Origin: an uncultured Blautia sp.
GTDB lineage: Bacteria; Bacillota; Clostridia; Lachnospirales; Lachnospiraceae
NCBI RefSeq assembly: GCF_934371575.1
Contig: NZ_CAKRNY010000004.1
Coordinates: 54,931 to 118,930 of the forward strand
Reading direction: 5' to 3'
Length of the DNA: 64,000 nucleotides
Shown here in pieces: positions 1 to 58,356 of this stretch (within the stretch, counting starts at the first letter, position 1; each line of letters opens with the position of its first letter). The notes beneath the pieces were generated by a model. It had not been told where the DNA came from. It worked only from the letters and a program-made list of their open reading frames with translations, and ran no database searches. The position numbers and the translations under genes were made by a program.

Positions 1-2195
1 CCATTCATAAGCCGGCTCTTCGCATCCTCTGTCTGCATATATTCCAGGAAATAATCCGCCAGATTTGCCGGATCCGGCAGGCTGTTCTTTTTGGCATATT
101 CCGGATAAGCCTCTACCACATCCTGTAAAAGCAGATCCTGTATCTGCTTTGTGGTAATCGTCACTGTCACACTATTTTTAATAATAGCCTCCGCTTCCTC
201 CCTGATCTGCTGCTGGATCTCGCTCTGGCTTAAAAAAGCAAGAATGCTCGCTGCATCAGTCTGTGTAATATTATTTGCCTTGGCGTACTCCTGATACTGG
301 TTTACCAGCTTCGCCGCCACAGCAATCACTTTTTCCGAAGATATATCCACTTTCACATTATTTTTTACCAGCTCCTGCAAATCCTTGCATAAACGTTCAT
401 TCATTTCTTTAGAAGTCAGATATTGCTGCAAAGCAGCCTGCATTTTATCCGGGTCTGACTCTGGTTTGTCCTTAATGCTCTCCTGATATCCTGCCAGAAC
501 ATCCTTTAACAGCGCACTGATTTTTTCCTCTGTAAAATCAAATTTCACAGATTGCAAAGCCTGGCTCATATCCGGCACCTGATCTTCCGGAAGACTTTTC
601 AGAATCTCCTCCGGATCGACCACATCAGAAAGATCCAGATTCAGATCATCCATTTTGATCAGCCCGGACAGATCAGGCACAGCGCTTTCATCCAGATTGA
701 TATTCCCTGCCATCCCTGACAGATCAGGCATATCCACATTCATGCCCGAAGAAAATCCCGAAAGACTGGAAAGATCCATATTATAACCGCTAAGGTCCAC
801 CTTAAAAGCTTCCTGCAGGGCATCTGCATTAATGGAAAACAAAGATTCCATGTCGAACCTGCTGTCCTCATTATCCTCTTTTCCAAACTCTTCCCCTGTA
901 AATACATTGGTCTTCTCATCTGCAAGCTGCTGTTTTACAATTTCACTGGAAGCTGCCTTCTGGATCACATGTCTGGTCAGCTCCGGGGGATAACAGATTC
1001 CAGCAGTCAGCATGGAAGCCGTCGCACCCTCTGCTGGCTGGACAATTCCCACAATGGTAAGGTCTTCTCCGTTTTTTACCAGCTTTTTCATATAAGAACT
1101 ATTATCCGATTTATCCTTCCATACCTTATATTCCTTATCATATTCATAATAATCCGTACTGCTCACCAGCTTAAACTTCGTTCCCAAAATCTCGTCATAC
1201 TCATAAGTACCAATATCTTCCGGCATCTTTACAGCCTCTTCTGCCATAAATGCCTGCACCATTTCATCCAATTCCTTACTGTCCCGAAGTCCCAGCGTAT
1301 ACTGAAGAAAATCACTGATATCACCGCCTGAAGTAAGCACCAGCACACATTCTTTATAGTTTTTTGGCCATCTTCCAGCCTTTACCTCGTACTGCTCTTT
1401 ATAGAGATTTTCGTTTTCCGGCATTTCATAAAAAACATCCGTGCTCATGGTAGCGGACATAATACTGTTGGAAGAGCCGGATCCAAGCCCCATAGCTGAA
1501 AAAGATTTGTCCGGATTTACCTGACGGATATTGTTCCCGTCTTCCCGAAAAATCTGCGGGGAAACCGAATAGGTGTATTCCACTGAATTAGCATACTGGG
1601 AAACACCGCTTTCGTCGCTGTCCAGATAGGTTTTCAGAGACTCCAGATCGTTCGAGTTCATTTTGGAAAACATATTGGTCACCATCTGGGCTACCCCTAC
1701 TTCTCCATCCTTCTTTTCACCTTGTGCAGCGGCAGCTCCTACCATCATGGAAGTAAGGTCCATTCCTGTGCTCTGAATCTGCAGCGGATATTCCGAAAGC
1801 GTCTCCTCTTCCATATCTGTAATATATTTATCCACTCCATTTGAGATAGAAAGAATCAGAGCAATTCCGATAATACCGATAGAACCTGCAAAAGAGGTCA
1901 GAAGCGTTCTGGCTTTCTTAGTCTTTAAATTCTGAAAACTAAGGGAAAGAGCGGTAAAAAAGGACATGGAGGATTTTCCCATATTCTTATGGACCGGAGG
2001 CGCCATTTTTTCACTGTCGATTTCAAATGGATCGGTATCTGAAAGGATTCTTCCATCCTTCACGGTCACGATCCTGGTAGCATAAAGCTGTGCCAGCTCC
2101 GGGTTATGAGTGACCATTACCACCAGCCGCTCCTTTGCAACCTCTTTCAGAAGATCCATAACCTGGACACTGGTGTCTGAATCCAGTGCCCCTGT
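1..2195 (-). pseudogene. ABC exporter, C-terminal part (end of ATPase plus FtsX-type permease), split by prophage
   Basis: The minus-strand frame is open from 2195 to the window edge. It begins at the PTGALDSD part of Walker B/D-loop, continues through the H-switch (VMVTHNPEL) and then into a permease: a hydrophobic segment LLTSFAGSIGIIGIALIL, followed by a long extracytoplasmic region with many D/S-rich stretches, as in MacB/FtsX-type exporters. The ATPase N-terminus is at 53088-53591 on the far side of the prophage. An in-frame stop (TAA) from phage DNA lies just upstream, so this half has no native start. The C-terminal permease helices lie beyond the window. The family exports peptides, antimicrobials or lipids; the substrate is unknown. 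The gene is inactive while the prophage is present and would be restored by exact excision. Confidence 0.9.
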
Positions 2196-3640: not shown

Positions 3641-4141
3641 ATGACAAAATATTTTGAGAATTGCAAAACTGCTGAAGAACTTAAAAAGGCTTATAAGAAA
3701 ATGGCCGCTAAGCTTCATCCGGATAACAATCCGGCCAAAGACACCACTAAAGATTTCCAGGAAATGCAGGCAGAATTTCAGACAGCATTCGAAAAACTCA
3801 AAAATGTACACGTCAATAAAGACGGTGAGGAGTACGAAAAAGAAACAACTGAGACAGCCGGTGAGTTTATGGATTTAATAAACAAGCTTTTACATTTTCC
3901 GGGTATAGAAGTTGAGCTCTGCGGCTCATGGATCTGGGTTTCTGGCGAAACAAAAGCTGTCAAAGATGATCTGAAGGCTTTAGGTTTCAAATGGTCACGT
4001 AATAAGGCCGCGTGGTACTTCCATCGTGATCCATATCATAAACGCTCCAAAAAGAGTATGACGCTCGATGAAATCCGTAACATGTACGGTTCAAAAAAAT
4101 ACAAGGGCGCCGGTGCAGATCCGGAAGCACTTCCTGCATAA
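3641..4141 (+). CDS. J-domain (DnaJ-like) protein
   Basis: A 166-residue protein. Residues 1-60 form a short J-domain-like region with the signature HPD in AAKLHPDNNP, the motif by which J-proteins stimulate Hsp70/DnaK. There is no G/F linker and no zinc domain, so it is not housekeeping DnaJ. The C-terminal half has LKALGFKWSRNKAAWYF, a small GF-W-S-W motif recalled from DnaJ-like proteins of Firmicutes plasmids and conjugative elements. It is first in the operon, with ribosome site GGAGG. A role in recruiting host DnaK to a phage process, or blocking it, is an inference. Confidence 0.75.
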   Translation: MTKYFENCKTAEELKKAYKKMAAKLHPDNNPAKDTTKDFQEMQAEFQTAFEKLKNVHVNKDGEEYEKETTETAGEFMDLINKLLHFPGIEVELCGSWIWVSGETKAVKDDLKALGFKWSRNKAAWYFHRDPYHKRSKKSMTLDEIRNMYGSKKYKGAGADPEALPA

Positions 4142-4154
4142 TCCGCCTGATGAT

Positions 4155-4195
4155 GGCCGGGTGGTTACCGGCCGAAACGGTCCGTGTCGGACCGT
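4155..4195 (+). other. Two tandem hairpins between the first two operon genes
   Basis: GGCCGG pairs with CCGGCC (4155-4173), and ACGGTCC pairs with GGACCGT around GTGTC (4177-4195). There is no T-run, so these are not classic terminators. They could stabilise the mRNA or mark a processing site between the J-domain gene and its neighbour. Confidence 0.5.
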
Positions 4196-4230
4196 CGCGG
4201 AAAACCGTAAAAAGCAAGGAGGTTGACACC

Positions 4231-5457
4231 ATGACGAAATTTGAGATTGAATACAAAAACGGCCGCGGTAAATTTGCGGTTGATCTGGAGCAGTTGCTCC
4301 CATGCAGTACTGGTGATTTTAAAAGGCTCTTATCTTTTGTGAATCTTTCAAGTGATCCAGCAGGCAACGCCGACAAATTATTTTCTTTCATGGCCTGCCA
4401 GGTTGAAGATCTGAAAAAAGCCCGTGAAAAAGAAAATTCCTGCAGTTCATGCGGGAAAGAAAAAATTGCAAAAATTAACGCCGCACTCAAGAAATATATT
4501 TCCCATGCAGCGGCACTTTCAAAAGACTACGGTACACCGGAAATCACAGACGACGCCGCAAAAATCATTTTAAAGTCAGCAAAGGTTTACAGCCTTATCC
4601 GCGAAAATGGCGTGAACTGTGTGAAAGAATTTGACGGTTGGACTTTTGAAAAATCCGGTTTTACTTTTGATGTAAGAAAAGACGAAAACCGCCGCTATAT
4701 TATTATGTTGCACGGTACCGGTTTGAAATGTGCCATGGCGGACAAAAAGAGCCAGGTTCCGCTGGAAATCACGCCGGCGGTTATTGAGCTATTGAACGCC
4801 TCGGAAAATCAAGAGCGGATTTCTGAAGCCGAGAACCATTGTAAAAAATTGATGATTAAAGCCGGTTATATACAGCCGGAAAAATGCCAGGAAAAACAGG
4901 AGGAAAAAGACATGCAGGAAGAAAAGAAAAACGTAGTGGAGTATTCCATTACCGGCACTGGAAGCGTGCTGATGTTTGTTGTGATCGGCGAAAAAGAAAA
5001 TGGCCGCTTGGAAAAACAGCGCGTCACATTTGCACCGGATCATCCAGACTATAACGCGGTACTTTCCGCCGCTATTCGATACGGCTGTAAACGCCCAGAA
5101 AATATTTTGTCAACTGTCCCAGCTAAAGAAGAATCTGCTACAGTTCCTGAAGAAAAAAATGGTGCAGAGGAAAGCCGAAATCCAAAAGCGGCACGTGGAC
5201 CGGTACCGGAAAAGACATTTGTAGGCCAGTCTCTCCAGGGCAATGGCTGGAAAATATACTTTGATGGTGTAGCAAATAGAACAAGGGTTATCTTTTCCGT
5301 GGATCCTTCTAAAAAAGCAATTAAAGTTGTAGAAAATGCCGGTTTTTATTATTCCTCAAAAATGAATAGCTGGAACAAAAAGCTGACCTTTAAAGCCTAT
5401 CGCGCAGCTCAGGAGCTAGCAAAGGAATTGACTAAAGCATACGGCGACGCCGCCTAA
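4231..5457 (+). CDS. Conserved accessory protein of unknown function
   Basis: A 408-residue protein. The start at MTKFEIEYKNG follows AAGGAGGTTGACACC. It has an internal CSSCGKEK cysteine pair near residue 70, a charged lysine/glutamate-rich centre near 220, and a C-terminal segment around 340-400 with the motif AGFYYSSKMNSW. That motif resembles the GFKWSRNKAAW motif in the preceding J-domain protein, so the two may share a small C-terminal fold. There is no signal peptide or membrane segment. I do not recognise the rest. Operon position suggests it works with the J-domain protein. Confidence 0.6.
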   Translation: MTKFEIEYKNGRGKFAVDLEQLLPCSTGDFKRLLSFVNLSSDPAGNADKLFSFMACQVEDLKKAREKENSCSSCGKEKIAKINAALKKYISHAAALSKDYGTPEITDDAAKIILKSAKVYSLIRENGVNCVKEFDGWTFEKSGFTFDVRKDENRRYIIMLHGTGLKCAMADKKSQVPLEITPAVIELLNASENQERISEAENHCKKLMIKAGYIQPEKCQEKQEEKDMQEEKKNVVEYSITGTGSVLMFVVIGEKENGRLEKQRVTFAPDHPDYNAVLSAAIRYGCKRPENILSTVPAKEESATVPEEKNGAEESRNPKAARGPVPEKTFVGQSLQGNGWKIYFDGVANRTRVIFSVDPSKKAIKVVENAGFYYSSKMNSWNKKLTFKAYRAAQELAKELTKAYGDAA

Positions 5458-8002: not shown

Positions 8003-8614
8003 TTAGCCTCCCGCCATCCTTTTTCCTGCCAGCATATTAAATTTACGGAGGCTCTCGTCAATGTTCTCCTGGATCACACCGATATATACCAACGTCTCCC
8101 GCTGGAAGCTGTGACATAATATCCTCTGAAGACTCACTACGTCACCTGTCATTTTGTAATAATGGTAACCGAACGTTTTTCGCAAGGTGTGACAACCTAT
8201 GCGCTCTTCTACTCCGGCCTGGCGTGCTATAGTATTGATAATCTGATAGCAGCGCTGTCGGGTAATAGGCTGGTATTTATGCGTTACAGGATCCTTTTTT
8301 CGGCTCTGGAGAATATATTCATCTGCTTTTCTTCCTGTCAGCAGTCTATTGATTTCCTTTCTTGCCGCCGGATTAATTAAAATCCTGGCTTCCTTTCCGG
8401 TCTTTTTCGCTTGAATCTGTGCATAATCCTTTCCACGCAGATCTGATACCTTGAAGCGTCTAAAATCGCTCACGCGTAAACTGGTGTTGAAGCCAACGAC
8501 AAGAATTAATTCCCAACTTACCTCTCCGGTCTTTCGGTGTTTATCGTGCTCCCTTGCGATTTCATAACATTTTTGCAATGTATCTAAATCCCTGATAGGC
8601 TGTACCACCTGCAT
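8003..8614 (-). CDS. Small tyrosine recombinase (catalytic domain only)
   Basis: A 203-residue protein holding the tyrosine-recombinase signature: R in TSLRVSDF, a lysine in AKKTGKEAR, HTLRKTFG (H-x-x-R), H in ILCHSFQ and nucleophile Y in LVYIGV. It lacks the N-terminal arm-binding and core-binding domains of classical integrases. It sits next to the endolysin in the late operon, far from the attachment sites, while integration is explained by the serine integrase. It may resolve multimers, invert a segment or be a relic of another element. Confidence 0.85.
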   Translation of the reverse strand: MQVVQPIRDLDTLQKCYEIAREHDKHRKTGEVSWELILVVGFNTSLRVSDFRRFKVSDLRGKDYAQIQAKKTGKEARILINPAARKEINRLLTGRKADEYILQSRKKDPVTHKYQPITRQRCYQIINTIARQAGVEERIGCHTLRKTFGYHYYKMTGDVVSLQRILCHSFQRETLVYIGVIQENIDESLRKFNMLAGKRMAGG

Positions 8615-8634: not shown

Positions 8635-9732
8635 TCACTTATTGTTTTTGTACCATTCATTGACTTTCGCCTGTACTGCTGCTGAATCATATCCTGCCGT
8701 CTTTAGGCGCTGTGTACGTTGAGGATCATCCCCCCATTTTCCGGCAAGGATTTCCTGCACAAGCTCGTCAATAGTTTTTGCGTTTTTAGATTTGTAAGCC
8801 GCATTAACCTTCGCCTGTACTGTTGCTGGATCATACCCTGCCGCCTTCAGGCGCTGTGTACGTTGAGGATCATCCCCCCATTTTCCAGCAAGAATTTCCT
8901 GCACAAGCTCGTCAATATCCTTTTTGAAAGAATTTGTTTTCTTGGCGTACATATCTGTAAGCTTGTTTTTTGAATTAGTTCCATATTTGCCATCTACAGT
9001 TAATCCATTTTCTTTTTGGAATTTGCGCAGAGCTGTGTCTGTGCCGGATCCAAAATCACCATCTGCACCATAAGAGCCGCAGGAATAACCAACCTTGATT
9101 AACATTTCCTGCATGGTTTTTACGTCTGTGCCGGTATCTCCTTTTGACAGATATCCTTTGTTAGTGGAGGAATCTCCTGCCTTTTCTCCGCTTGTTATTG
9201 CAATAGCTACATGATGGTTATCATTTAGCAGGATGTCTCCTGCCTGCAAATAATCACCACTTGTCAGATATTTTTTATCTGTAAGTACTTTCGCGCCAGC
9301 ATTTTTGAACGCTTCTCGCATTTTGTATGTAGTCAGATAGATGCTAACTGCTTTCAACTTTGGTCTGTTCAGCCGATAACCTACCGATTTTACAATACTT
9401 GCTGTGCTCTGACTGCAGTCTGTTTCGCATGGCTTCTTAATTTTTGACGGATCGTAGCCATTTGCGGCCAGCTGTTCCCAGAAGGTATAGCGATCATTGC
9501 TATTTCCTGCAGTTCCCTGATCGTAGCCAATCATATTATTATTCGCTGCCTGTGTTACCAGTTCTACAATTAATGTCGCTACTTCCTGGTCTTCAAAACG
9601 AAGAACGCAGAGCCAAGGTCTGTTATACCAGTTGATGATCTGATACTCTGTCCCGGTCTGATCTCCGGCCTTTCCGCCTGCGTATCTTCCATTTTCATCA
9701 TGTCCACAGTTTGATAATTTAACTACTGCCAT
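8635..9732 (-). CDS. Endolysin: NlpC/P60-like peptidase, PG-binding domain, two CW_7 repeats
   Basis: A 365-residue protein. The N-terminal 190 residues form a cysteine-peptidase-like lysin domain with Cys in ETDCSQSTAS and His in NDNHHVAIA. Residues 200-270 look like a PG_binding_1 domain (LSKGDTGTDVKTMQEML). The C-terminus has two near-identical CW_7 (Cpl-7-type) cell-wall repeats, each with LVQEILAGKWGDDPQRTQRL, which are also close at DNA level. There is no signal peptide, so export relies on the adjacent holin. It degrades host peptidoglycan at lysis. Confidence 0.88.
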   Translation of the reverse strand: MAVVKLSNCGHDENGRYAGGKAGDQTGTEYQIINWYNRPWLCVLRFEDQEVATLIVELVTQAANNNMIGYDQGTAGNSNDRYTFWEQLAANGYDPSKIKKPCETDCSQSTASIVKSVGYRLNRPKLKAVSIYLTTYKMREAFKNAGAKVLTDKKYLTSGDYLQAGDILLNDNHHVAIAITSGEKAGDSSTNKGYLSKGDTGTDVKTMQEMLIKVGYSCGSYGADGDFGSGTDTALRKFQKENGLTVDGKYGTNSKNKLTDMYAKKTNSFKKDIDELVQEILAGKWGDDPQRTQRLKAAGYDPATVQAKVNAAYKSKNAKTIDELVQEILAGKWGDDPQRTQRLKTAGYDSAAVQAKVNEWYKNNK

Positions 9733-9745
9733 TGTTCATACCTCC

Positions 9746-10066
9746 TTATTTTCCTTTTCCTGGAGCTGCATTAACGATCTGTAAGATCATCTGCGTTACT
9801 TTATCAAATCCCAGCATTGCGCCTAACCACGAGAAGAGCATAAGCGCAATAAGGTACACCGCCAACTTGGCAGTAAGCGTTGCTTCCATCATAATGATGT
9901 AGGCTGCTGCAATCGCGATAGATAACACTACTGCTACAATTCCCGCTATAAGATTTGCACTGTATGGTTCCTCTGATTCTTTTTTGAATGTTTTAATTGC
10001 TTCTGTAATTCCCATGGTAAGGACTGATATTACTAATAACAAAAATAAAAAGCTCTCTAAACTCAT
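9746..10066 (-). CDS. Phage holin
   Basis: A 106-residue protein with three hydrophobic segments (FLFLLLVISVLTMG; LIAGIVAVVLSIAIAAAYIIM; LAVYLIALMLFSWLGAMLG) and a short charged N-terminal loop after the first. It is directly upstream of the endolysin and shares ATGA with the preceding gene stop. It forms the membrane lesion that releases the lysin. It resembles Clostridia phage holins of this size. Confidence 0.8.
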   Translation of the reverse strand: MSLESFLFLLLVISVLTMGITEAIKTFKKESEEPYSANLIAGIVAVVLSIAIAAAYIIMMEATLTAKLAVYLIALMLFSWLGAMLGFDKVTQMILQIVNAAPGKGK

Positions 10067-18855: not shown

Positions 18856-19095
18856 TCACTCCTTCCACGGTGGAGTTGTAGGTACAAACTCTTCCTGTTC
18901 CTCTTCTTCGTCGTCTGGAATCTCTATCACCGGCAGGTCAAGAAGCTCTCCTCCCTCAAAAATAGGAATTGTAGTGTATTCAGGATTCGCGCTCATTAAT
19001 TCGTAGGCATATGCTTCATCTCCATATACTTCCAGAGCAACACTGTCAAAGGTTTCCCCTGCAGTACACTGATATAATGTGTCACTTAATGTCAT
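18856..19095 (-). CDS. LysM-containing tail protein (P2 gpX-like)
   Basis: A 79-residue protein with a LysM-like motif (YQCTAGETFDSVALEVYGDEAYAY, split across residues 8-31) followed by MSANPEY and an acidic tail with a run of Glu. The start ATG overlaps the tape-measure stop. P2 gpX is the equivalent small LysM protein of the hub. It probably clips the hub to the tube. Confidence 0.8.
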   Translation of the reverse strand: MTLSDTLYQCTAGETFDSVALEVYGDEAYAYELMSANPEYTTIPIFEGGELLDLPVIEIPDDEEEEQEEFVPTTPPWKE

Positions 19096-22000
19096 GCATA
19101 CTCCTCCACTTCGTCTCTTATTTTCTTGCTCTTAAACCATTTGTTGAGCCGTTCTTTATCTGCTTGCAGAGCCTGCTCTACTCCTGCAGCATTTTCCGCA
19201 TAAATGGTTGGGCTGTATACAAGGGTTGTCGGTTCGCTGTTTCCGCTTCTCAGACCGCCATATTGTCCAAGCAGCTCTGGCCAGGTAAAACCAGAAGCCT
19301 CCCGGGCGGCATTTAAAAGCTGTGCTGTTCTTTCGCTGTGCTCCTCCGGAATCGCCCACTCAGGTCCTGCTTCTCCGAAAATAGAAGCGCTGGTTGCTCG
19401 GCCACCGGAAGCAAACATTTTCCGTCCTTGAATGTTTACGGTAATGGTTTTTCCGTTATAGCTGTTAATCACAGATGCCAAATGTCTTGCATCACCTGTT
19501 ACATTCTCTACAAGTGTCTGTCCGTCCTGATCTGTGATGGACATTTTCAGTAGTTCTGCATCACCGTCTACATACTCCATTAAAGTCTTGCCATCTGCAC
19601 CGTCAATAGTTGCTTCAAGCTGCTGGGTATTTCCATCAACGTCAACTTGGACTCCTTGCTCTTGAAGAGCTGTCATGCTATCTTCGCTTTCAACATGTGC
19701 TCGGATGGTGATTGGATCTAAATTCTGAAGATCAGATGTATCAGCTTCTACCGTTGCTCGTATCCTATATTGTTCCTGATTCTGGCTTGCATCTCCGTAT
19801 AAAAGAGAATAGGCGGCAAAATAATCCTTATATACACTATCCTCAGATGCCAAAGCGGAACCATTTCCAGTATCTTGCCTTACTTGCTCAAAATCATACA
19901 GTTGTGAAAGATTTGATACTAAATTGTTCAACTCATACATTGCAGTTTCCGATGTTTGGAAACTTGAAGTCCTAAGTTCTGAATCTGATATTGTACCCTT
20001 AGTGAAATCTTCAATTGAATTGAAAAACGCTTTAATTGATTCGGGGCCTTCTCCAAATGCTTTTACGGTTTCTTCAGCCGTAGTAATAGAATAAGCTGGA
20101 ATTGACGGTGCAATAGTATTTTCGAAATCCTCTTTCTGAGCTTGGTATGATACATTTTCACCTTGTCCTTTAGCTGAGGAAACAACTGTGTCTTCTCCAA
20201 GAATTGCCGACATGATTCCGTTGTAATCTTCAACACTCGTTTTCGCAAAATTATCATTAATCTGCTGCATTGCATATAACTGTTTTAATCTCTCCGCATT
20301 CGCAGTGTCGCCTTTTGCTTCATAATCAGAAATTCTTGCTTCCAGGCCATCATACCCGCCGTATCCGGCAATTTGTCTCGCAAGCAATTCACTTAATTGT
20401 GACCTGGTTGTACTTATTGCTGCGCCAGAATCGCCCGCATACATATTGCTGCCGTATAGGTCTTTAAAAAGTGATACCGCTGAATCAGCTGCAACTTCAC
20501 CATTTAGGACTTTATTTGCCAATCCCTGCAACTGACTATACGCATCTGCATAATCGCTTTGTTGTATCTGTGTGTCCCACAATTTATACAGCATATCATC
20601 ATATTTTTCGCCGTATTCTAAGACGTGCTGCTGGTACTTTGAGTCGATTTCTGCAAGTGCAGAATCTCTCATAGACTCCGTTACTTGTCGTCCATCAATT
20701 AAGGTGCCATTTTGAATTGCCTGATTATATTTATACTCTGCAGCATACCTTTCAGTAAGATAGGTGTCCTCTGCGTTGTCTAATGCCGTATCGCGGCTTT
20801 CCTCAATTTCTTTTGCAACATTCTTAATCTCATCCAGACTTGCAGTCTGCGCCTTATGTAAAAGTTTTTGCTGGTCTATATAATCTTGTTGATTCTGTGC
20901 CTCTAGCTCTGCCTGTGCCATTGCCTCATTATAAGATTGCATATAACTCAGGATATTCTGGTATTCTTCCTCGCTAATCTTTCCATCTGCAAATGCGCTT
21001 GTCATGGCGTCGCGCATTCCCTGTCCAATGCTCTCGGCCTGCGCCAAAGACTCATCGTATGAAGATCCTAAAAGTTCTATAAGATTATGATATTCTGGAT
21101 TTTGTTTTGCCTCGTCCAATCCTCCGAATAACATTTCCCAATATGACATGCTCGCAGCAGTACTATTCTCAATACCAGATACGACCGCGTCACTCATCTG
21201 TTGTCCGAGATTTTCAAACTCTGCAATATCCGTATCTGTTAAAGTTGCGTTTGTAAGCATATCTGTAAATAAGCTACTACTGAAGCTCTCGCTTGCAGTC
21301 TCATAGCTCTGTACGCTTTTATCTAAAGCTTCACGGAAAGAATCAACTTCTGCATATGCAGACTGGAAGCTTTCACTGATTCCAGAAAGATAGGCATTGA
21401 TCTTTGAATCATCAATTTCCATATTTCCAAAATTGCTTGCAAAGTTATGTTCTTCAAACTCTTTCATTGCGGCTGTAAGGGATGTTACTGTAATAATTCC
21501 CCCTGCAACAATACCTGTCGGTGTCAACAGATTTCCGATCAGTCTGAAAGCACTTCCGGCAATCATCATTCCAGGACCAGCCGCCGCAATAACTTCCAAC
21601 CCGGAAACCAGCGCGCTGAAGCTTGCGTCGTCCATTCCGGCGATATTATCAATAATATCTCCCAGACCTTCCAGTCCGTTTTCAAGCTGTCCGGAAAGTT
21701 CTTCGCCTACCAGCTGTTTCAATCTCTCAGCTTTGCTCAAGAAGGTTTCAATCTTTCCGTCCAGAGTGTCCATCATGGTTTCAGCTGCGTAAGCTCCGTA
21801 GCCCTCAGCCTCACCATTTTTCATGGAATCATACAGACCGTCATATCCTTCTGCGGCACTGCGCAGAAGAGTAAGAGCTTCTGTAATAGTCCTGGTTGGA
21901 AAAATCGCAGACAGAATCTGAAGCGCGTCGCTATTTTTCTCAATGTTATCAAAGCCGCCTGCAATATCTTCCAGAGACAGATACAATTCTCGGTATGTGT

Positions 22001-22853
22001 CAAGAACAGGCTTTAATTCTCCATTTGCATCATATGCGCTGAATCCTTCTGCTTCCAGTCGTGCATTCGCAGCCGCTAAAGCCTGGTCATTCATTAAAAC
22101 GGAAGCTTCATCACTGGTAGCGCCAAGCTCTGCCATTGCCTTTGTAGCCTTATCCGTCGGAGCAATCAGACGCATAATGGAATTACGGATCATAGTACCA
22201 GCTTCACTGCCTACGGTACCGGCATTTGCGGTAACAGCGATCAAAGTCATAAGCTCTTCTGGATCACTTACAAATCGCATTGTGTTACCCATCCGGAGCA
22301 TTGCTTCTCCAAACTCTCCGATGGTACTTGCGCTGCTATTTGCTGCAAAAGCCCACAAATCTGTAAAATGTGTCAGATCATCAAAGCTTACACCTGCAGC
22401 CGTAGTAGCTTTCACAATATAGTTGACCGCTTCGGACAGATCTAATCCGCCAGCCTGTGCCAACTGCATAGCTGCCGGAATACCATTTAATATCTGGTCA
22501 TAGTCCCAGCCTGCGTGTGCCGCTTCTGAAATCGCATTTGCTACATCGTTTGTATGAAAGATGGAAGAAGCCGCCCATTCGGTAGCGGTATCATCCAGGC
22601 TGGACATAACACTTGCAAGCTCTTTTGTGCTTCTGCCATATGTTGTAGATAGCGCAACTTCTGCGTCTTTCATGCTTTTCTCGTAATTACGATATACAGA
22701 TATAGACTCTTCCCCGAACTCTATAAGCTTGCTGGACAGTCCGTCTGTGATAGCTCCAAGCTGCGTCAGTGTAGATCCAATATCTGCAAAGCCGTTACCG
22801 ACCTGCGCATTAATGGCTATAATGGTTTCCAGCCGCTGTGATGATGACGCCAT
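19092..22853 (-). CDS. Tail tape measure protein
   Basis: A 1253-residue protein. Residues 1-250 match the TP901-type tape measure core (GWDYDQILNGIPAAMQLA, LTHFTDLWAFAANSS). A hydrophobic patch near 415-450 (GPGMMIAGSAFRLIGNLL) is the likely membrane-inserting part, and long helices follow. Near the C-terminus is GEAGPEWAIP, common in tape measures. It sets tail length and is ejected to help DNA cross the membrane. Residues about 542-647 (20913-21230) are clearly related to residues 74-179 of the secreted lysogeny-region protein at 50470-51555. Confidence 0.93.
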   Translation of the reverse strand: MASSSQRLETIIAINAQVGNGFADIGSTLTQLGAITDGLSSKLIEFGEESISVYRNYEKSMKDAEVALSTTYGRSTKELASVMSSLDDTATEWAASSIFHTNDVANAISEAAHAGWDYDQILNGIPAAMQLAQAGGLDLSEAVNYIVKATTAAGVSFDDLTHFTDLWAFAANSSASTIGEFGEAMLRMGNTMRFVSDPEELMTLIAVTANAGTVGSEAGTMIRNSIMRLIAPTDKATKAMAELGATSDEASVLMNDQALAAANARLEAEGFSAYDANGELKPVLDTYRELYLSLEDIAGGFDNIEKNSDALQILSAIFPTRTITEALTLLRSAAEGYDGLYDSMKNGEAEGYGAYAAETMMDTLDGKIETFLSKAERLKQLVGEELSGQLENGLEGLGDIIDNIAGMDDASFSALVSGLEVIAAAGPGMMIAGSAFRLIGNLLTPTGIVAGGIITVTSLTAAMKEFEEHNFASNFGNMEIDDSKINAYLSGISESFQSAYAEVDSFREALDKSVQSYETASESFSSSLFTDMLTNATLTDTDIAEFENLGQQMSDAVVSGIENSTAASMSYWEMLFGGLDEAKQNPEYHNLIELLGSSYDESLAQAESIGQGMRDAMTSAFADGKISEEEYQNILSYMQSYNEAMAQAELEAQNQQDYIDQQKLLHKAQTASLDEIKNVAKEIEESRDTALDNAEDTYLTERYAAEYKYNQAIQNGTLIDGRQVTESMRDSALAEIDSKYQQHVLEYGEKYDDMLYKLWDTQIQQSDYADAYSQLQGLANKVLNGEVAADSAVSLFKDLYGSNMYAGDSGAAISTTRSQLSELLARQIAGYGGYDGLEARISDYEAKGDTANAERLKQLYAMQQINDNFAKTSVEDYNGIMSAILGEDTVVSSAKGQGENVSYQAQKEDFENTIAPSIPAYSITTAEETVKAFGEGPESIKAFFNSIEDFTKGTISDSELRTSSFQTSETAMYELNNLVSNLSQLYDFEQVRQDTGNGSALASEDSVYKDYFAAYSLLYGDASQNQEQYRIRATVEADTSDLQNLDPITIRAHVESEDSMTALQEQGVQVDVDGNTQQLEATIDGADGKTLMEYVDGDAELLKMSITDQDGQTLVENVTGDARHLASVINSYNGKTITVNIQGRKMFASGGRATSASIFGEAGPEWAIPEEHSERTAQLLNAAREASGFTWPELLGQYGGLRSGNSEPTTLVYSPTIYAENAAGVEQALQADKERLNKWFKSKKIRDEVEEYA

Positions 22854-49534: not shown

Positions 49535-49900
49535 ATGACTCAGGGCGAAAGAGTTCGAGAAGTGCGAAAAGAATTGAATTTAACGCTTGAAAAATTTGGT
49601 GAAAAATTAGGTGTTAAAAAAGGAACTATTTCAGCCATAGAAACAAATCGCAACGCTCTTACAGAGCAAATGACTGCTGCTATTTGCCGAGAGTACAATG
49701 TAAACTATGATTACCTGGTAAATGGTGAAGGGGAAATGTTTGATAATTTACCGCAGACCGTCCTGGATGAACTGTGTATGCAGTACAATTTAGATGAGTT
49801 TGACAGAAAATTAATTAATCTTTATCTTTCCCTGCCGGAATCTGCAAGGACTGCCATTAAAGATCAGATCAAAAAAGAGTTTATGAGCAAGAAGGAATAA
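49535..49900 (+). CDS. CI-like XRE repressor
   Basis: A 121-residue protein. The helix-turn-helix is at residues 10-60 (LTLEKFGEKLGVKKGTISAI, ITEQ-like LTEQMTAAICREYNVNYDYL). The short C-terminal domain has LYLSLPESARTAIKDQ. It lacks a RecA-sensitive peptidase domain, so induction would need another signal, such as an antirepressor. Paired identical operators lie upstream. It keeps the prophage silent. Confidence 0.87.
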   Translation: MTQGERVREVRKELNLTLEKFGEKLGVKKGTISAIETNRNALTEQMTAAICREYNVNYDYLVNGEGEMFDNLPQTVLDELCMQYNLDEFDRKLINLYLSLPESARTAIKDQIKKEFMSKKE

Positions 49901-50166: not shown

Positions 50167-50367
50167 CTATCCTTTATACTCTGAATCAAATAACTCAATC
50201 ATCGTAACATCAAGTGCGCGGGCAATGGCTTCCAGCTGCACCAGCGTAGGCGATACCAGACCATTCTCAATATTATTGAGCGTAGTCTTCCCAATCCCAG
50301 TCGCTGTCTCCAGCTGCTTCAAAGTCATACCTTTATTAATCCTAGCCTGCCACGTATACACTTCCAT
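50167..50367 (-). CDS. Second XRE-type regulator
   Basis: A 66-residue single-domain helix-turn-helix protein; start MEVYTWQARINKG follows ACAGGAGGAG. The HTH is KGMTLKQLETATGIGKTTLN, followed by PTLVQLEAIARALDVTM. It faces away from the secreted-protein gene and probably controls the shared intergenic region. Confidence 0.8.
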   Translation of the reverse strand: MEVYTWQARINKGMTLKQLETATGIGKTTLNNIENGLVSPTLVQLEAIARALDVTMIELFDSEYKG

Positions 50368-50469: not shown

Positions 50470-51555
50470 ATGAAAAGACAATTTATCGTCTTACTTCTTG
50501 CAGGTGGTATACTATTGCCTTCTTTACCTGTATCTGCAGATGGGTTATTTAGTAACATAACCAATAGTCAAAATGCAGCTGACGAATATAAACAATTTAG
50601 AAATGAAGTAGAACAATATAGAAAAAAATATAATTCTTATCGCACTGATCTTGTTTTTAAATTGCAAAATAATTCAACAGATCAATCTAGTATTTCTGAT
50701 TATGAAGTTCTGATTGATAAGATTAGTCAAACAGTTTCTGATTATATATCTTCCGATACTGCCGCTAGTATGACATATTGGGAAAATTTGTTTGGCGGGC
50801 CCGAAAAAGCACCAAAGGATAATGCCTATCACGATATAATTGAAGTTTTAGGATCCGCTTACGACGATGATTTAGAAGAAGTTAAACTAATTACCCAAAA
50901 TTTTAAAAAAAATCTTAGATTAGTGTTTAAGGATGAAAAAATTACCGACCTGGAATATCAAAATATTACAAGTTATTTGCAAGATTATGATAGTTTGCTT
51001 GAAAAAGAAAATGATTCTATTTCAAAAAATGAAGAAAAGTCTCCATCGGACACAGTTGAATCAACAGATACTTGCTGTTTAGTTGATTTCTGTGAGTTAT
51101 TTGCGCAGCGCTACGTTGCTTATCAGAAGGATAATAATAATTCTTATGAGATTCCTGCCAATAATTTTGTTTTACCGGCTAGTGATGGAGATATGATACA
51201 AATTCAAACAACGCCCGCTACGCTGACCATAGATAAAGATGATTTTTCTATTTGTCAGGCAACAATTGAATTAGATAATTCTCTTTTGTCGGATGAGGAA
51301 AGTAATAAAATGAGTATACGTTGCATTATGGCGTTATCGGCTTTGGAATATCCGTTTGATGTTCAGAATGCCGAAAATAAGGCAATAGGTGTTTGGAACA
51401 ATCAAATCTTGCCTGCTATAAAAAAATTAAATTTCAATTCTTTAAATGGCAAGAGTGAACGTATATTAATATACTCTGGAAATTATGATTATTATTTATC
51501 TTCATTAGAAACTTCGATTGCAAAGTATTATTACATAAATGCAGAAAAACGCTAA
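50470..51555 (+). CDS. Secreted protein with a tape-measure-like domain (candidate superinfection exclusion)
   Basis: A 361-residue protein. MKRQFIVLLLAGGILLPSLP followed by VSADG is a type I signal peptide; no lipobox. Residues 74-179 align without gaps to tape measure residues about 542-647. From TAASM to the end of the match I count about 39 identities in 83 positions, including YWE, LFGG, LGS-x-YD and EYQNI-x-SY. The C-terminal half (after TDTCCLVDF) is unrecognised. The gene is AT-rich, in the lysogeny region between regulator and integrase, and reads with them. Known exclusion lipoproteins such as Ltp of TP-J34 act on tape measures, so a block of DNA entry is the favoured inference. Confidence 0.75.
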   Translation: MKRQFIVLLLAGGILLPSLPVSADGLFSNITNSQNAADEYKQFRNEVEQYRKKYNSYRTDLVFKLQNNSTDQSSISDYEVLIDKISQTVSDYISSDTAASMTYWENLFGGPEKAPKDNAYHDIIEVLGSAYDDDLEEVKLITQNFKKNLRLVFKDEKITDLEYQNITSYLQDYDSLLEKENDSISKNEEKSPSDTVESTDTCCLVDFCELFAQRYVAYQKDNNNSYEIPANNFVLPASDGDMIQIQTTPATLTIDKDDFSICQATIELDNSLLSDEESNKMSIRCIMALSALEYPFDVQNAENKAIGVWNNQILPAIKKLNFNSLNGKSERILIYSGNYDYYLSSLETSIAKYYYINAEKR

Positions 51556-51674: not shown

Positions 51675-53060
51675 ATGAAAAAAATCGAATCTTCTAACAG
51701 CCCTCTTCGCGTAGCCCTATACATCCGTGTATCTGGTGAAGAACAAAAAATGAAAGGACTTTCTCTGGAAGCCCAGCAAGAACGCCTGGAAGAATATGCC
51801 AGAGAGCGGGGCTGGATCATTGTAGGTACATACATTGACGCAGCCAAAACTGCGCGTAAGGAAATGCGCAAGCGAACTGAATTTCAGAAGATGATAGCTT
51901 CCGTAAAGCGTGACGAAGTAGATCTGCTTCTCTTCTGCCGACTGGACAGATGGTTCCGATCCGTAGCCGACTACTATAAAATCATGGAAATCTTACAAGC
52001 CCATCACTGCGACTGGAAGACCACGGACGAAGAATACGACACCAGCACCGCAAACGGACGACTTTATATCAATGTAAAATTGTCTATCGCCCAAAATGAA
52101 GCTGATATCTGCGGCGAGCGTATAGACGTAGTGTTTGATTCCAAAATTCAGCACGGAACTGTGGTTTCCGGTGCCTGTCCTTATGGATACCGTGTGAACG
52201 CAGATAAAAAATTAGAGATTGATCCAGACGCTGCTGCCATTGTCCAAGATGCTTTTAACAATTATGAAACTGTCGTCTCCCAGCGCGGCACAATCCGCTA
52301 TATCCGTGAAAAATATGGTGTAAACTGGTGTGATGCTACGTTTCATCGGATGCTTATGGAACCACTTTACATTGGTTTATATGATCGTGGGGGGCGCTAT
52401 AATAAAAACTTCTGTGAGCCCATTATCTCGGAGGAGCAGTTTCATAGGGTTCAGGATCTTTTATCTCGCAATGTCCGGAAAACGCCAGCCGGACGTGTAT
52501 ATCTCTTTACGTCTATTGTTACCTGTGCGGAATGCAATCATATCATGGTTGGTACCTTTTCCACCAAAGGGAATTATAGTGCGTACTACTATCGGTGTAA
52601 TCAGCATTATCAAAGGGATCTCTGTTCTCACAATAAAGCTATCCGTGAGGCCTATATTGAAGACTGGCTTTTTGCTCACCTTCAAGAAGAAATTGATAAG
52701 TGCATGGTGGGTTGGGAAGTCAAAGCGGCAGAGCGAAAAAAGCAAGCTTCTCGTTCTGCTGATAAAGCAGCCTTGAAGCGCAAATTAACCAAGCTAAAAG
52801 AGTTGTATGTAGATGATCTTATCAGTATTGAGGATTATAAAAAAGATTATAAGATTTACACGGAAGCTCTACAGAATATACCGGACGTAATACAGGAAAT
52901 GCCGCCGAACCTCTCAGCAGTACGCAGGGTGTTAGATGATGACTTTAAAGCGATTTACGATTCGTTAAGCCGTGAAGAAAAAAGGACTCTCTGGAGATCT
53001 ATCATATCCGAAATCAAGGTGGACCGTGATAATAACATCACGGATATTATTTTTAGCTAA
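51675..53060 (+). CDS. int: Large serine recombinase (integrase)
   Basis: A 461-residue protein. Resolvase domain at 10-150 with catalytic Ser20 in YIRVSGEEQ and Arg in CRLDRWFRS. Recombinase domain includes PYGYRVN and LMEPLYIGLYDRGG. Zinc ribbon domain CAECNHIM with C-N-Q-H and C-S-H follows, then a coiled coil (ADKAALKRKLTKLKELYVDD). It stops 5 bp before the attP arm. It integrates into the ABC gene; excision would need a directionality factor not identified here. Confidence 0.95.
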   Translation: MKKIESSNSPLRVALYIRVSGEEQKMKGLSLEAQQERLEEYARERGWIIVGTYIDAAKTARKEMRKRTEFQKMIASVKRDEVDLLLFCRLDRWFRSVADYYKIMEILQAHHCDWKTTDEEYDTSTANGRLYINVKLSIAQNEADICGERIDVVFDSKIQHGTVVSGACPYGYRVNADKKLEIDPDAAAIVQDAFNNYETVVSQRGTIRYIREKYGVNWCDATFHRMLMEPLYIGLYDRGGRYNKNFCEPIISEEQFHRVQDLLSRNVRKTPAGRVYLFTSIVTCAECNHIMVGTFSTKGNYSAYYYRCNQHYQRDLCSHNKAIREAYIEDWLFAHLQEEIDKCMVGWEVKAAERKKQASRSADKAALKRKLTKLKELYVDDLISIEDYKKDYKIYTEALQNIPDVIQEMPPNLSAVRRVLDDDFKAIYDSLSREEKRTLWRSIISEIKVDRDNNITDIIFS

Positions 53061-53065
53061 TATCC

Positions 53066-53091
53066 GTACTAATTATACATAACCTGTTGGT
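53066..53091. other. attR, right prophage junction
   Basis: Phage arm GTACTAATTA (53066-53075), then TACATAA and core CCTGT (53083-53087), followed by host DNA. Joined to attL it gives the symmetric attP, and host parts join to restore DEPTGALD of the ABC ATPase. Confidence 0.88.
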
Positions 53092-56589: not shown

Positions 56590-57870
56590 TTACTTAGCGA
56601 TGGAATCAATAGCAGCCTGTGTATGCTCTACATAAAGATCCTCAACAGCTTCAATTCTTCCAAGACCTTCGATCTGGCAGTCAACCTCATCAAAATCTCC
56701 GGAAGCCTCGAACATGCTCTTCCAGGAATCGTCATCATCACCAGCCATATCGTTGTTTGCATGGTCACCAGCAACAACCATAAGCGGACGAAGGATTACT
56801 TTCTTGAATCCGGCATCTTTTACTTTAGCAATAACTGCATCACAAGCGGTATCTTCCGGCTCACCCTCTACAGTACCGATGAATGCATTTGTGAAGCCAA
56901 GATTCTCCATCTGTGTCTGCATCTGGTCATATGTAACGTTTGCTGTATGGGAAGTACCATGTCCCATGAATACGAATGCTGTTCCATCCTCTACAGCAGC
57001 TTCCATGCTGTCATATCCTGCAGATTTAACAGCCTCATCTGTGATAGCCTTAGCTACAGCTGCTTTGTCATCGTTAATAACAGTTGCATCTGCACCAACC
57101 TCACCAAGCATTGGCTCAGCGATTGCTACAGACTCAAATTTATCCTTGTACTCATCGATAGCTTCTACCATCTCATCGTACTCAGCACCATGCATAAGGT
57201 GTGTAGGCTGAACTACAAGGTTCTTAACTCCGTTTGCTACTGCACGGTCAAGAGCCTGCTGCATATTATCAATAGCCTCTCCGTCTCTTGCCTGTACATG
57301 GTTGATGATGATCTGAGCTGTAAAAGCTCTTCTTACAGACCAATCCGGGAATGCTTCTGCAAGCTTATCCTCGATTCCCTTGATATCCTCTGCACGGCTG
57401 TCGTTAAAGGAAGTACCAAAGCTTACAACAAGAAGCTCATTCTCACCAATTTCGTCCTGATTACGAGGATCATCCTTGGAAGCGTCACCTGTGTCACGTC
57501 CAAAGTACTCCGGACTTGCTTCTTCTCCCTCTACCAGCTCTTTCTGAGCATCTGTAAGGGCATCCCATGCTTCTTTTGCTTCTTTGCACTGTGCATCTGT
57601 ATCGTCTGTTCTCTCCTGAACGTAGATTGCATCGATAAGTGCTGCTACTTTATCGGCTGCTTCCTGATCTGCATCTGCAGTATCATCAGCTTCTTCTGCA
57701 TCGTCTGCTTCTTCTGCATCGTCTGCTGCCTCAGCATCGTCTGCTGCCTCAGCATTCTCTTCTGTTGCTGCCTCTTCTGTCTCTGCAAATGCAACAGTTC
57801 CGGTTGCTGCAGTCATGCTTGCTGCCATTGATGCTGCGAGAAGCAGTGCTAATAAAGTTTTTCTTTTCAT
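56590..57870 (-). CDS. cbiK: Exported CbiK-type sirohydrochlorin chelatase
   Basis: A 426-residue protein. Start MKRKTLLALLLAASMAASM follows AGGAAAAAGAA; further upstream in-frame codons are the riboswitch. After the signal peptide comes an Asp/Ala/Glu low-complexity stretch, then the chelatase: LLVVSFGTSFNDSR, His in VQPTHLMHGAEYD, GEVGAD and His in FMGHGTSHTAN. These match the two metal-binding histidines of CbiK. Normal CbiK is cytoplasmic; exported forms are known in Desulfovibrio. It may handle cobalt, haem or another tetrapyrrole outside the membrane. Confidence 0.85.
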   Translation of the reverse strand: MKRKTLLALLLAASMAASMTAATGTVAFAETEEAATEENAEAADDAEAADDAEEADDAEEADDTADADQEAADKVAALIDAIYVQERTDDTDAQCKEAKEAWDALTDAQKELVEGEEASPEYFGRDTGDASKDDPRNQDEIGENELLVVSFGTSFNDSRAEDIKGIEDKLAEAFPDWSVRRAFTAQIIINHVQARDGEAIDNMQQALDRAVANGVKNLVVQPTHLMHGAEYDEMVEAIDEYKDKFESVAIAEPMLGEVGADATVINDDKAAVAKAITDEAVKSAGYDSMEAAVEDGTAFVFMGHGTSHTANVTYDQMQTQMENLGFTNAFIGTVEGEPEDTACDAVIAKVKDAGFKKVILRPLMVVAGDHANNDMAGDDDDSWKSMFEASGDFDEVDCQIEGLGRIEAVEDLYVEHTQAAIDSIAK

Positions 57871-57916
57871 TTCTTTTTCCTCTTTTTTTCCTGTATTTCC
57901 GGATTGAATTCTGCAT

Positions 57917-57943
57917 AAGAAAACAGCTGCATTTCTGCAGCTG
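57917..57943 (-). terminator. Riboswitch expression-platform terminator
   Basis: On the minus strand CAGCTGCA-GAAA-TGCAGCTG is followed by TTTTCTT. It lies between the cobalamin riboswitch and the cbiK start, so transcription attenuation is likely. Confidence 0.7.
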
Positions 57944-58024
57944 CACGTTTCCCATAAACACGTTTCCCCAAAAACAGGATTACTATGTATTGCTATGAGA
58001 ATACAGGTTCTGTGTACCGCAGAC

Positions 58025-58190
58025 CTAAGATTCCACGCCAAGGCAGTTCTCCTGACTTCGGTCAACACTGCTTCCCCTTCCCGGTTTCCCAGTGGGCTCT
58101 GAAGCAGCTCCCTTACACAGTGACGGCATCGTTCCGGATTCACACCGGATTCTCTTTTGTGCATCATGTTCATGATGCAACCTTCGCGTT
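58025..58190 (-). ncRNA. Cobalamin riboswitch
   Basis: The minus strand has the class hallmarks in order: GGTTGCATC, AATCCGGTGTGAATCCGG, GCCGTCACTGTG, GGGAAACCGGGAA and GTCAGGAGAACTGCC. The B12 box and paired P3-P6 elements fit. It precedes the exported cbiK gene, so B12 sufficiency should switch off the chelatase and the NEAT-like gene behind it. Confidence 0.92.
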
Positions 58191-58356
58191 ATAACCATTA
58201 CACATATTCGACTCGGATAGTTAAAAAGTACCATAATTTCATGTATTTTTTATGAACAAAATATGTATTTTCTGTAAATCAAGAAAAACAGGATCATATC
58301 TTATTTACAACCATGACAGTTTTGATTTTATAAGAAAAAAAGGTCCACATTATTAC

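Follow-up and report, generated by a model that had tools for sequence, protein, structure and literature searches.

Injection blocks known or proposed to act on the tape measure protein (TMP) of phages include Ltp (PMC3952083) and HK97 gp15 (PMC10883804). Ltp of Streptococcus phage TP-J34 is a prophage-encoded, exported protein of the lysogeny module, and its proposed target is the TMP of a phage that superinfects the lysogen (PMC3952083). Injection is also blocked by the prophage proteins HK97 gp15 and P22 SieA, for which an inner-membrane location is known or predicted; gp15 does not stop HK97 hybrids that have the tail tube and TMP genes of HK022 (PMC10883804). Sie2009 and other lactococcal Sie proteins, which block DNA injection, are encoded by lysogeny-module genes between integrase and repressor (PMC7693887). 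SNIPE contacts both the TMP and the host partner ManYZ and acts while the genome is being injected, and the N-terminal part of some of its homologues shares homology with the tail needle of P22 (PMC13190303). DicB, a small protein of a cryptic E. coli prophage, operates via MinC and stops injection at the level of the host partner, ManYZ (PMC6832061), and prophage Tai proteins act at another step, tail assembly (PMC11364771). The subject here is a gene at 50470..51555 (+ strand) of a 64,000-nucleotide stretch of DNA, the window, from an uncultured Blautia sp. (contig NZ_CAKRNY010000004.1). On the sequence evidence, its 361-residue product is a chimera in which a piece of the TMP type of the resident prophage is joined to the C-terminal domain (CTD) of a separate, newly recognised phage family: a two-domain design and not a plain mimic.

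Position, export-type start and composition make the chimera fit the injection-exclusion class. It resembles Ltp in its exported-type product, its lysogeny-module gene and a TMP-linked exclusion that is proposed for the chimera; Ltp, in contrast, is a lipoprotein whose two repeat regions are believed to touch a TMP in the region of its C-terminal end, and the available part of the source does not call it TMP-derived (PMC3952083). The Sie proteins share the gene slot, but no TMP-derived domain is described for them in the accessible portion of that paper (PMC7693887). HK97 gp15 and SieA differ in being membrane proteins, and the sections at hand describe no TMP fragment in them (PMC10883804). 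The nearest precedent found is provided by the tail-needle-like SNIPE homologues, in which a piece of an injection device is incorporated into a defence protein. SNIPE is, however, a membrane-anchored DUF4041/GIY-YIG nuclease that is mostly cytoplasmic, whereas the chimera has no Pfam match to either nuclease domain and no PADLOC match. DicB is the nearest functional analogue of a model in which a host partner is the target, and is not described as phage-structural in origin in the available text (PMC6832061). In the open-access literature no description of an exported TMP fragment was found. The chimera may be an exported superinfection-exclusion protein of the lysogen, acting at DNA injection with its TMP domain as decoy or co-assembling bait; we regard this proposal as evenly poised between right and wrong.

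The TMP gene of the prophage (19092..22853, - strand; 1253 residues) matches Pfam PhageMin_Tail (2.1e-30) and the PHROG 'tail length tape measure' annotation (7.2e-64). BLASTP aligns chimera residues 27–179 with TMP residues 489–647, the homologous donor-type domain (20913..21389, - strand), at 58/159 identities with six gap positions (100 bits, E 6e-27); the best of 1000 shuffled versions reaches 26.2 bits. With hhalign, a profile of ten TMPs matches chimera residues 44–179 at 98.7% (E 2.6e-16). The similarity reported in the initial annotation is thus real under significance-tested alignment, and longer than stated there: its first residue lies directly behind the signal peptide, some 50 residues before the start given in that annotation. 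In an all-against-all comparison of the 240 open reading frames (ORFs) of the window, chimera and TMP form the only strong pair, the next ones being two ORFs antisense to each other (E 2e-4) and a 50-residue match between neighbouring ORFs (E 1e-3). Identity peaks at the motif TAASMTYWENLFGG (10/15) and around EYQNITSYLQDY (9/15), is low over the first 30 residues (2/15 for each half) and falls to zero over the last 11 residues compared. The sites most conserved among TMPs are the ones best kept in the chimera (23/53, followed by 16/52 and 13/52), which suggests that a fold or a contact has been preserved. AlphaFold2, with TMP rows in the alignment, models the piece as a four-helix bundle (pLDDT 87.8). 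In the TMP itself, a hydropathy scan places the two most hydrophobic stretches (residues 414–456; 21486..21614, - strand) shortly before this domain. By size and place the chimera lies outside the TMP class, as it has 361 residues and is encoded beside an integrase, with no long tail-module body.

The chimera gene is an intact ORF whose ATG is preceded by a G-rich, ribosome-binding-like stretch. Residues 1–23 (50470..50538, + strand) form a signal-peptide-like N-terminus, MKRQFIVLLLAGGILLPSLPVSA followed by DG, with a type I-like cleavage site between VSA and DG, all judged by eye; this agrees with the earlier description of an exported protein encoded in the lysogeny region of a prophage. No lipobox is present in the chimera and no cysteine lies near the cleavage site (cysteines occur at 202, 203, 208, 262 and 285). 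The TMP-derived domain, delimited by BLASTP, hhalign and AlphaFold2, comprises residues 27–179 (50548..51006, + strand) and is followed by a charged, low-complexity linker of residues about 180–195 (51007..51054, + strand). The CTD, recognised by family comparison and AlphaFold2, extends over residues 196–361 (51055..51552, + strand); its model is alpha/beta (pLDDT 83, pTM 0.82) and gave no clear match in the PDB. The repeat domains of Ltp are covered by a Pfam family; a Pfam scan of the chimera returned no match above cut-off, PhageMin_Tail included.

A word-limited search of 5.8 billion proteins with the chimera yielded two relatives: P0003, a full-length chimera entry, and P0004, which has 208 residues and consists of a signal peptide and the CTD alone (28% identity, E 1e-17). 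Profiles built from that start led to three viral contigs, five genome contigs, two further genomes and one further viral contig, and also to three further CTD proteins and two fragments. The 15 full-length members outside the window comprise 11 loci plus P0004, P0125, P0126 and P0128; among them L008 is a near copy of L007, and P0125 of L011. Family motifs are EFCELY..R, AG...ID, SALEY and YSGNYDYYL, the last of which is also found in the chimera. All 15 are composed of a signal-peptide-like N-terminus, judged by eye, and the CTD, and a single one of them, in L006, has a lipobox (IGCGSS). A Pfam scan of the family (13 alignment rows) gave nothing better than E 0.017, and the CTD appears to represent an undescribed family of small exported proteins. 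Since the TMP piece is absent from all 15 members, the TMP mimic would be an addition to a lysogeny-module protein. The initial view of the product as an exported TMP mimic therefore applies to its N-terminal half, which is TMP-like, but overlooked that the C-terminal half belongs to a separate exported family.

The position of the CTD gene is constant: it is flanked by a helix-turn-helix (HTH) gene and an integrase gene in all 11 loci outside the window and lies in the structural module of none. The initial annotation had considered that homologues might be common structural proteins packaged in virions, and this does not hold for the CTD family. Profile scans covered ten of the loci, L008 being judged by eye. 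The ten integrases all match PHROG integrase families, six of them PHROG 95 (serine type by eye) and four PHROG 1 (tyrosine by eye), and nine of the ten regulators match Pfam HTH families, that of L026 being recognised by eye only. In lactococcal prophages, exclusion genes sit in this same slot between repressor and integrase (PMC7693887).

Other proteins are also accommodated in the slot. L009 and L010 each harbour one extra gene for an exported or membrane protein: in L009 (10774-11595, + strand) its product has an N-terminal membrane stretch, seen by eye, and no Pfam match, and in L010 of genome G007 (9251-9874, + strand) a second exported protein of about 207 residues is encoded directly before the CTD gene. 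Three genomes or records carry the TMP type of the window prophage, but three different non-CTD proteins in the slot. That of G098 (L075, 8092-9252, + strand), which has the TMP but no CTD, lacks Pfam matches and, by eye, has a membrane stretch near its N-terminus. That of G258 (L071, 4679-5272, - strand) is an exported protein of 197 residues with a CTD-like pattern (FMAFVAATEYD, YYITI) and is perhaps a remote CTD relative (hhalign against the CTD profile 14%, E 0.002). The 220-residue protein of G273 (L072, 1828-2490, - strand) combines an N-terminal membrane stretch, again by eye, with an HNH domain (Pfam 3.7e-15), a layout that recalls membrane-anchored injection nucleases.

The CTD is mostly found together with this TMP type. 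When the TMP domain was used as query, nine of ten CTD genomes or records were positive, the exception being G006; the TMP lies on the contig of the CTD gene in seven of the nine and on another contig in G008 and G113. With the chimera as query, both genes were detected in six of eight CTD genomes or records. Among 250 relatives of genome G004, four have the CTD, nine have the TMP and four have both, an overlap with a chance P of 8e-7, or of 2e-5 without the central genome G004 and 7e-4 when the previously known G008 is also left out. In these surveys the CTD thus implies the TMP type far more than the reverse. The co-occurrence bears on a rather unlikely alternative, namely that the chimera is a lysogenic conversion factor unrelated to phage entry, whose CTD acts on the host surface or surroundings while the TMP helices serve as a spacer or adhesive module. 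The association of the CTD gene with that TMP type in most records found speaks against it, as does the nature of the added domain, which comes from the phage's own TMP type and is not an arbitrary helical bundle.

The fusion makes a functional link between CTD and TMP more likely, without proving one. When two families that are otherwise encoded separately in one set of phages become fused, this classically hints that they interact. Distances within the CTD and TMP families correlate over 10 phages (r 0.81, Mantel p 0.0024), a weak indication because three of the ten are close relatives. Both points favour a built-in self-antagonist, in which the CTD would bind the TMP domain in trans as the ancestral mode of exclusion and the fused copy would occupy or tune the binding site, shifting specificity or sparing the phage's own TMP. 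This we consider improbable, since a copy that stays bound for good should leave the protein inactive.

The TMP piece is not a recent acquisition. As the initial annotation had noted, the chimera gene is more AT-rich than the TMP gene: guanine-cytosine (GC) content is 31% against 44%, and by domain 29% for the TMP-like part, 33% for the CTD and 42% for the corresponding domain of the TMP. Together with the divergence, this gap indicates that the copy is old. In a BLAST comparison of the piece with 121 collected TMPs (122 BLAST rows), the prophage's own TMP, an identical entry and nine relatives rank on top with 95.9–103 bits, the next reaching 84.3. A tree places the piece inside the group of the own TMP and its relatives (96/94; 83/88 with fewer rows), an alternative placement not being rejected in the approximately unbiased (AU) test (p 0.165), and its branch measures 2.69 against a median of 0.14. 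The insertion point can be recognised: in relatives with the CTD only, the signal peptide runs straight into a short start with an invariant threonine (for example ASTDKRD, GSTKRRG; T199), and in the chimera the TMP piece separates the end of the signal peptide from this conserved, threonine-containing CTD start (VESTDT). Recombination might have placed a TMP fragment behind a signal peptide by accident, the product being tolerated without a role, and a single known lineage and the strong divergence of the piece, with its identity-free end, would suit such an origin. We judge it decidedly unlikely, given that neither of the two full-length sequences compared has an interrupted reading frame, that the TMP-conserved sites are preferentially kept and that the fold of the piece is confidently modelled. 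The database entry P0003, 99% identical to the window protein with five substitutions, stands for 124 sequences, and BFVD A0A8S5QE39 (Caudovirales sp. ctqPn17) equals the chimera in length, with a CTD 99% identical.

The exclusion mechanism that we infer, from expression in the lysogen and a site outside the membrane to any binding, the exclusion itself and the choice of target, would have the CTD as its core: a small, predicted secreted domain encoded between repressor and integrase in phages mostly of one TMP type. In the present lineage the exported protein would have acquired a four-helix domain immediately after the signal peptide, the one that in the TMP follows the most hydrophobic, presumed membrane-spanning stretch. 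The chimera would wait outside the cytoplasmic membrane until a phage of the same type ejects its TMP, whereupon the TMP-like domain would bind the incoming TMP, co-assemble with it and poison the channel. Alternatively, that domain may act as a decoy by binding a host membrane partner needed by the TMP. In either case the CTD would then hold or block the site and DNA entry would be stopped. Either mode is compatible with the sequence. A more specific version, which is possible but on balance doubtful, holds that a domain of the phage's own TMP, the membrane-proximal one, has been domesticated as the sensor or decoy of an exported exclusion protein, with the CTD as effector of a scattered, undescribed exclusion family naturally directed at this TMP type. 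If true, the chimera would parallel, on the prophage side, those host restriction factors that arose by capture of viral structural genes.

A number of observations weigh against exclusion by a TMP-targeted chimera. The fusion is known from one lineage only, relaxed constraint would be another explanation for the long branch on which the TMP piece lies, and a promoter consensus was not found just upstream of the chimera gene. Shared ancestry, with tail and lysogeny modules co-travelling in one phage lineage, may explain the co-occurrence, and the CTD and TMP genes of G008 and G113 may belong to different prophages, as they lie on separate contigs. A second census did not reproduce the association: among 248 relatives of G006, after removal of two false matches to ABC-F proteins, one has the CTD (G006 itself, the centre, without the TMP domain), three have the TMP and none has both. 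When G002 and 28 viral records from the TMP scan were tested, the CTD occurred in four of the 29, three of which were first found via the CTD; most of these records are fragments. Among TMP-scan records longer than 50 kb it is present in three of five, and in one (G262) of the three not previously found via the CTD.

Were the exclusion reading correct, the finding would bear on how siphophage TMPs cross Gram-positive-type membranes and on how prophages recognise rivals at that moment. Because an exported protein has this single, defined TMP domain, the decisive contact may be made by the corresponding part of the TMP, and the TMP domain of the chimera could be used as a soluble reagent to seek the partner of the TMP. 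The CTD family, in turn, offers testable exported genes in the exclusion slot of Clostridia phages.

The prophage occupies approximately 50.9 kb of the window and interrupts an ABC-transporter ATPase gene. The ATPase reading frame is cut after DEPTG at ~53,087, where CCTGT (53083..53087) is the candidate right attachment core, and resumes with ALDSDT at ~2,195, where the same pentamer (2191..2195) is the candidate left core. From right to left the prophage carries the serine integrase gene, the chimera gene, a small divergent HTH gene, an HTH repressor-like gene and early genes, followed by genes for terminase, portal, protease, TMP, a baseplate or tail protein and endolysin. The large serine integrase (51675..53060, + strand; PHROG integrase 7.7e-108) is encoded by the next gene downstream of the chimera. 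The probable phage repressor is an HTH regulator (49535..49900, + strand; PHROG transcriptional regulator/repressor), and the divergent gene between it and the chimera gene encodes an HTH protein of 66 residues (50167..50367, - strand; PHROG transcriptional regulator). The ORF lists of the related loci showed no HTH gene that separates the repressor gene from the CTD gene, so this small protein may regulate the chimera.

A second, short integrase of tyrosine type (8003-8614, - strand; PHROG integrase 3e-44) adjoins the endolysin at the prophage end opposite the serine integrase. Near the left end, 3641-5457 (+ strand) encodes a J-domain-like protein, recognised by eye from KKMAAKLHPDNN, and then a protein of 435 residues. 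Outside the prophage, a cobalamin riboswitch (58025-58200, - strand; Rfam RF00174, 90 bits) lies at the start of ORF 56590-58173, whose product resembles, by eye, a secreted CbiK-type cobaltochelatase.
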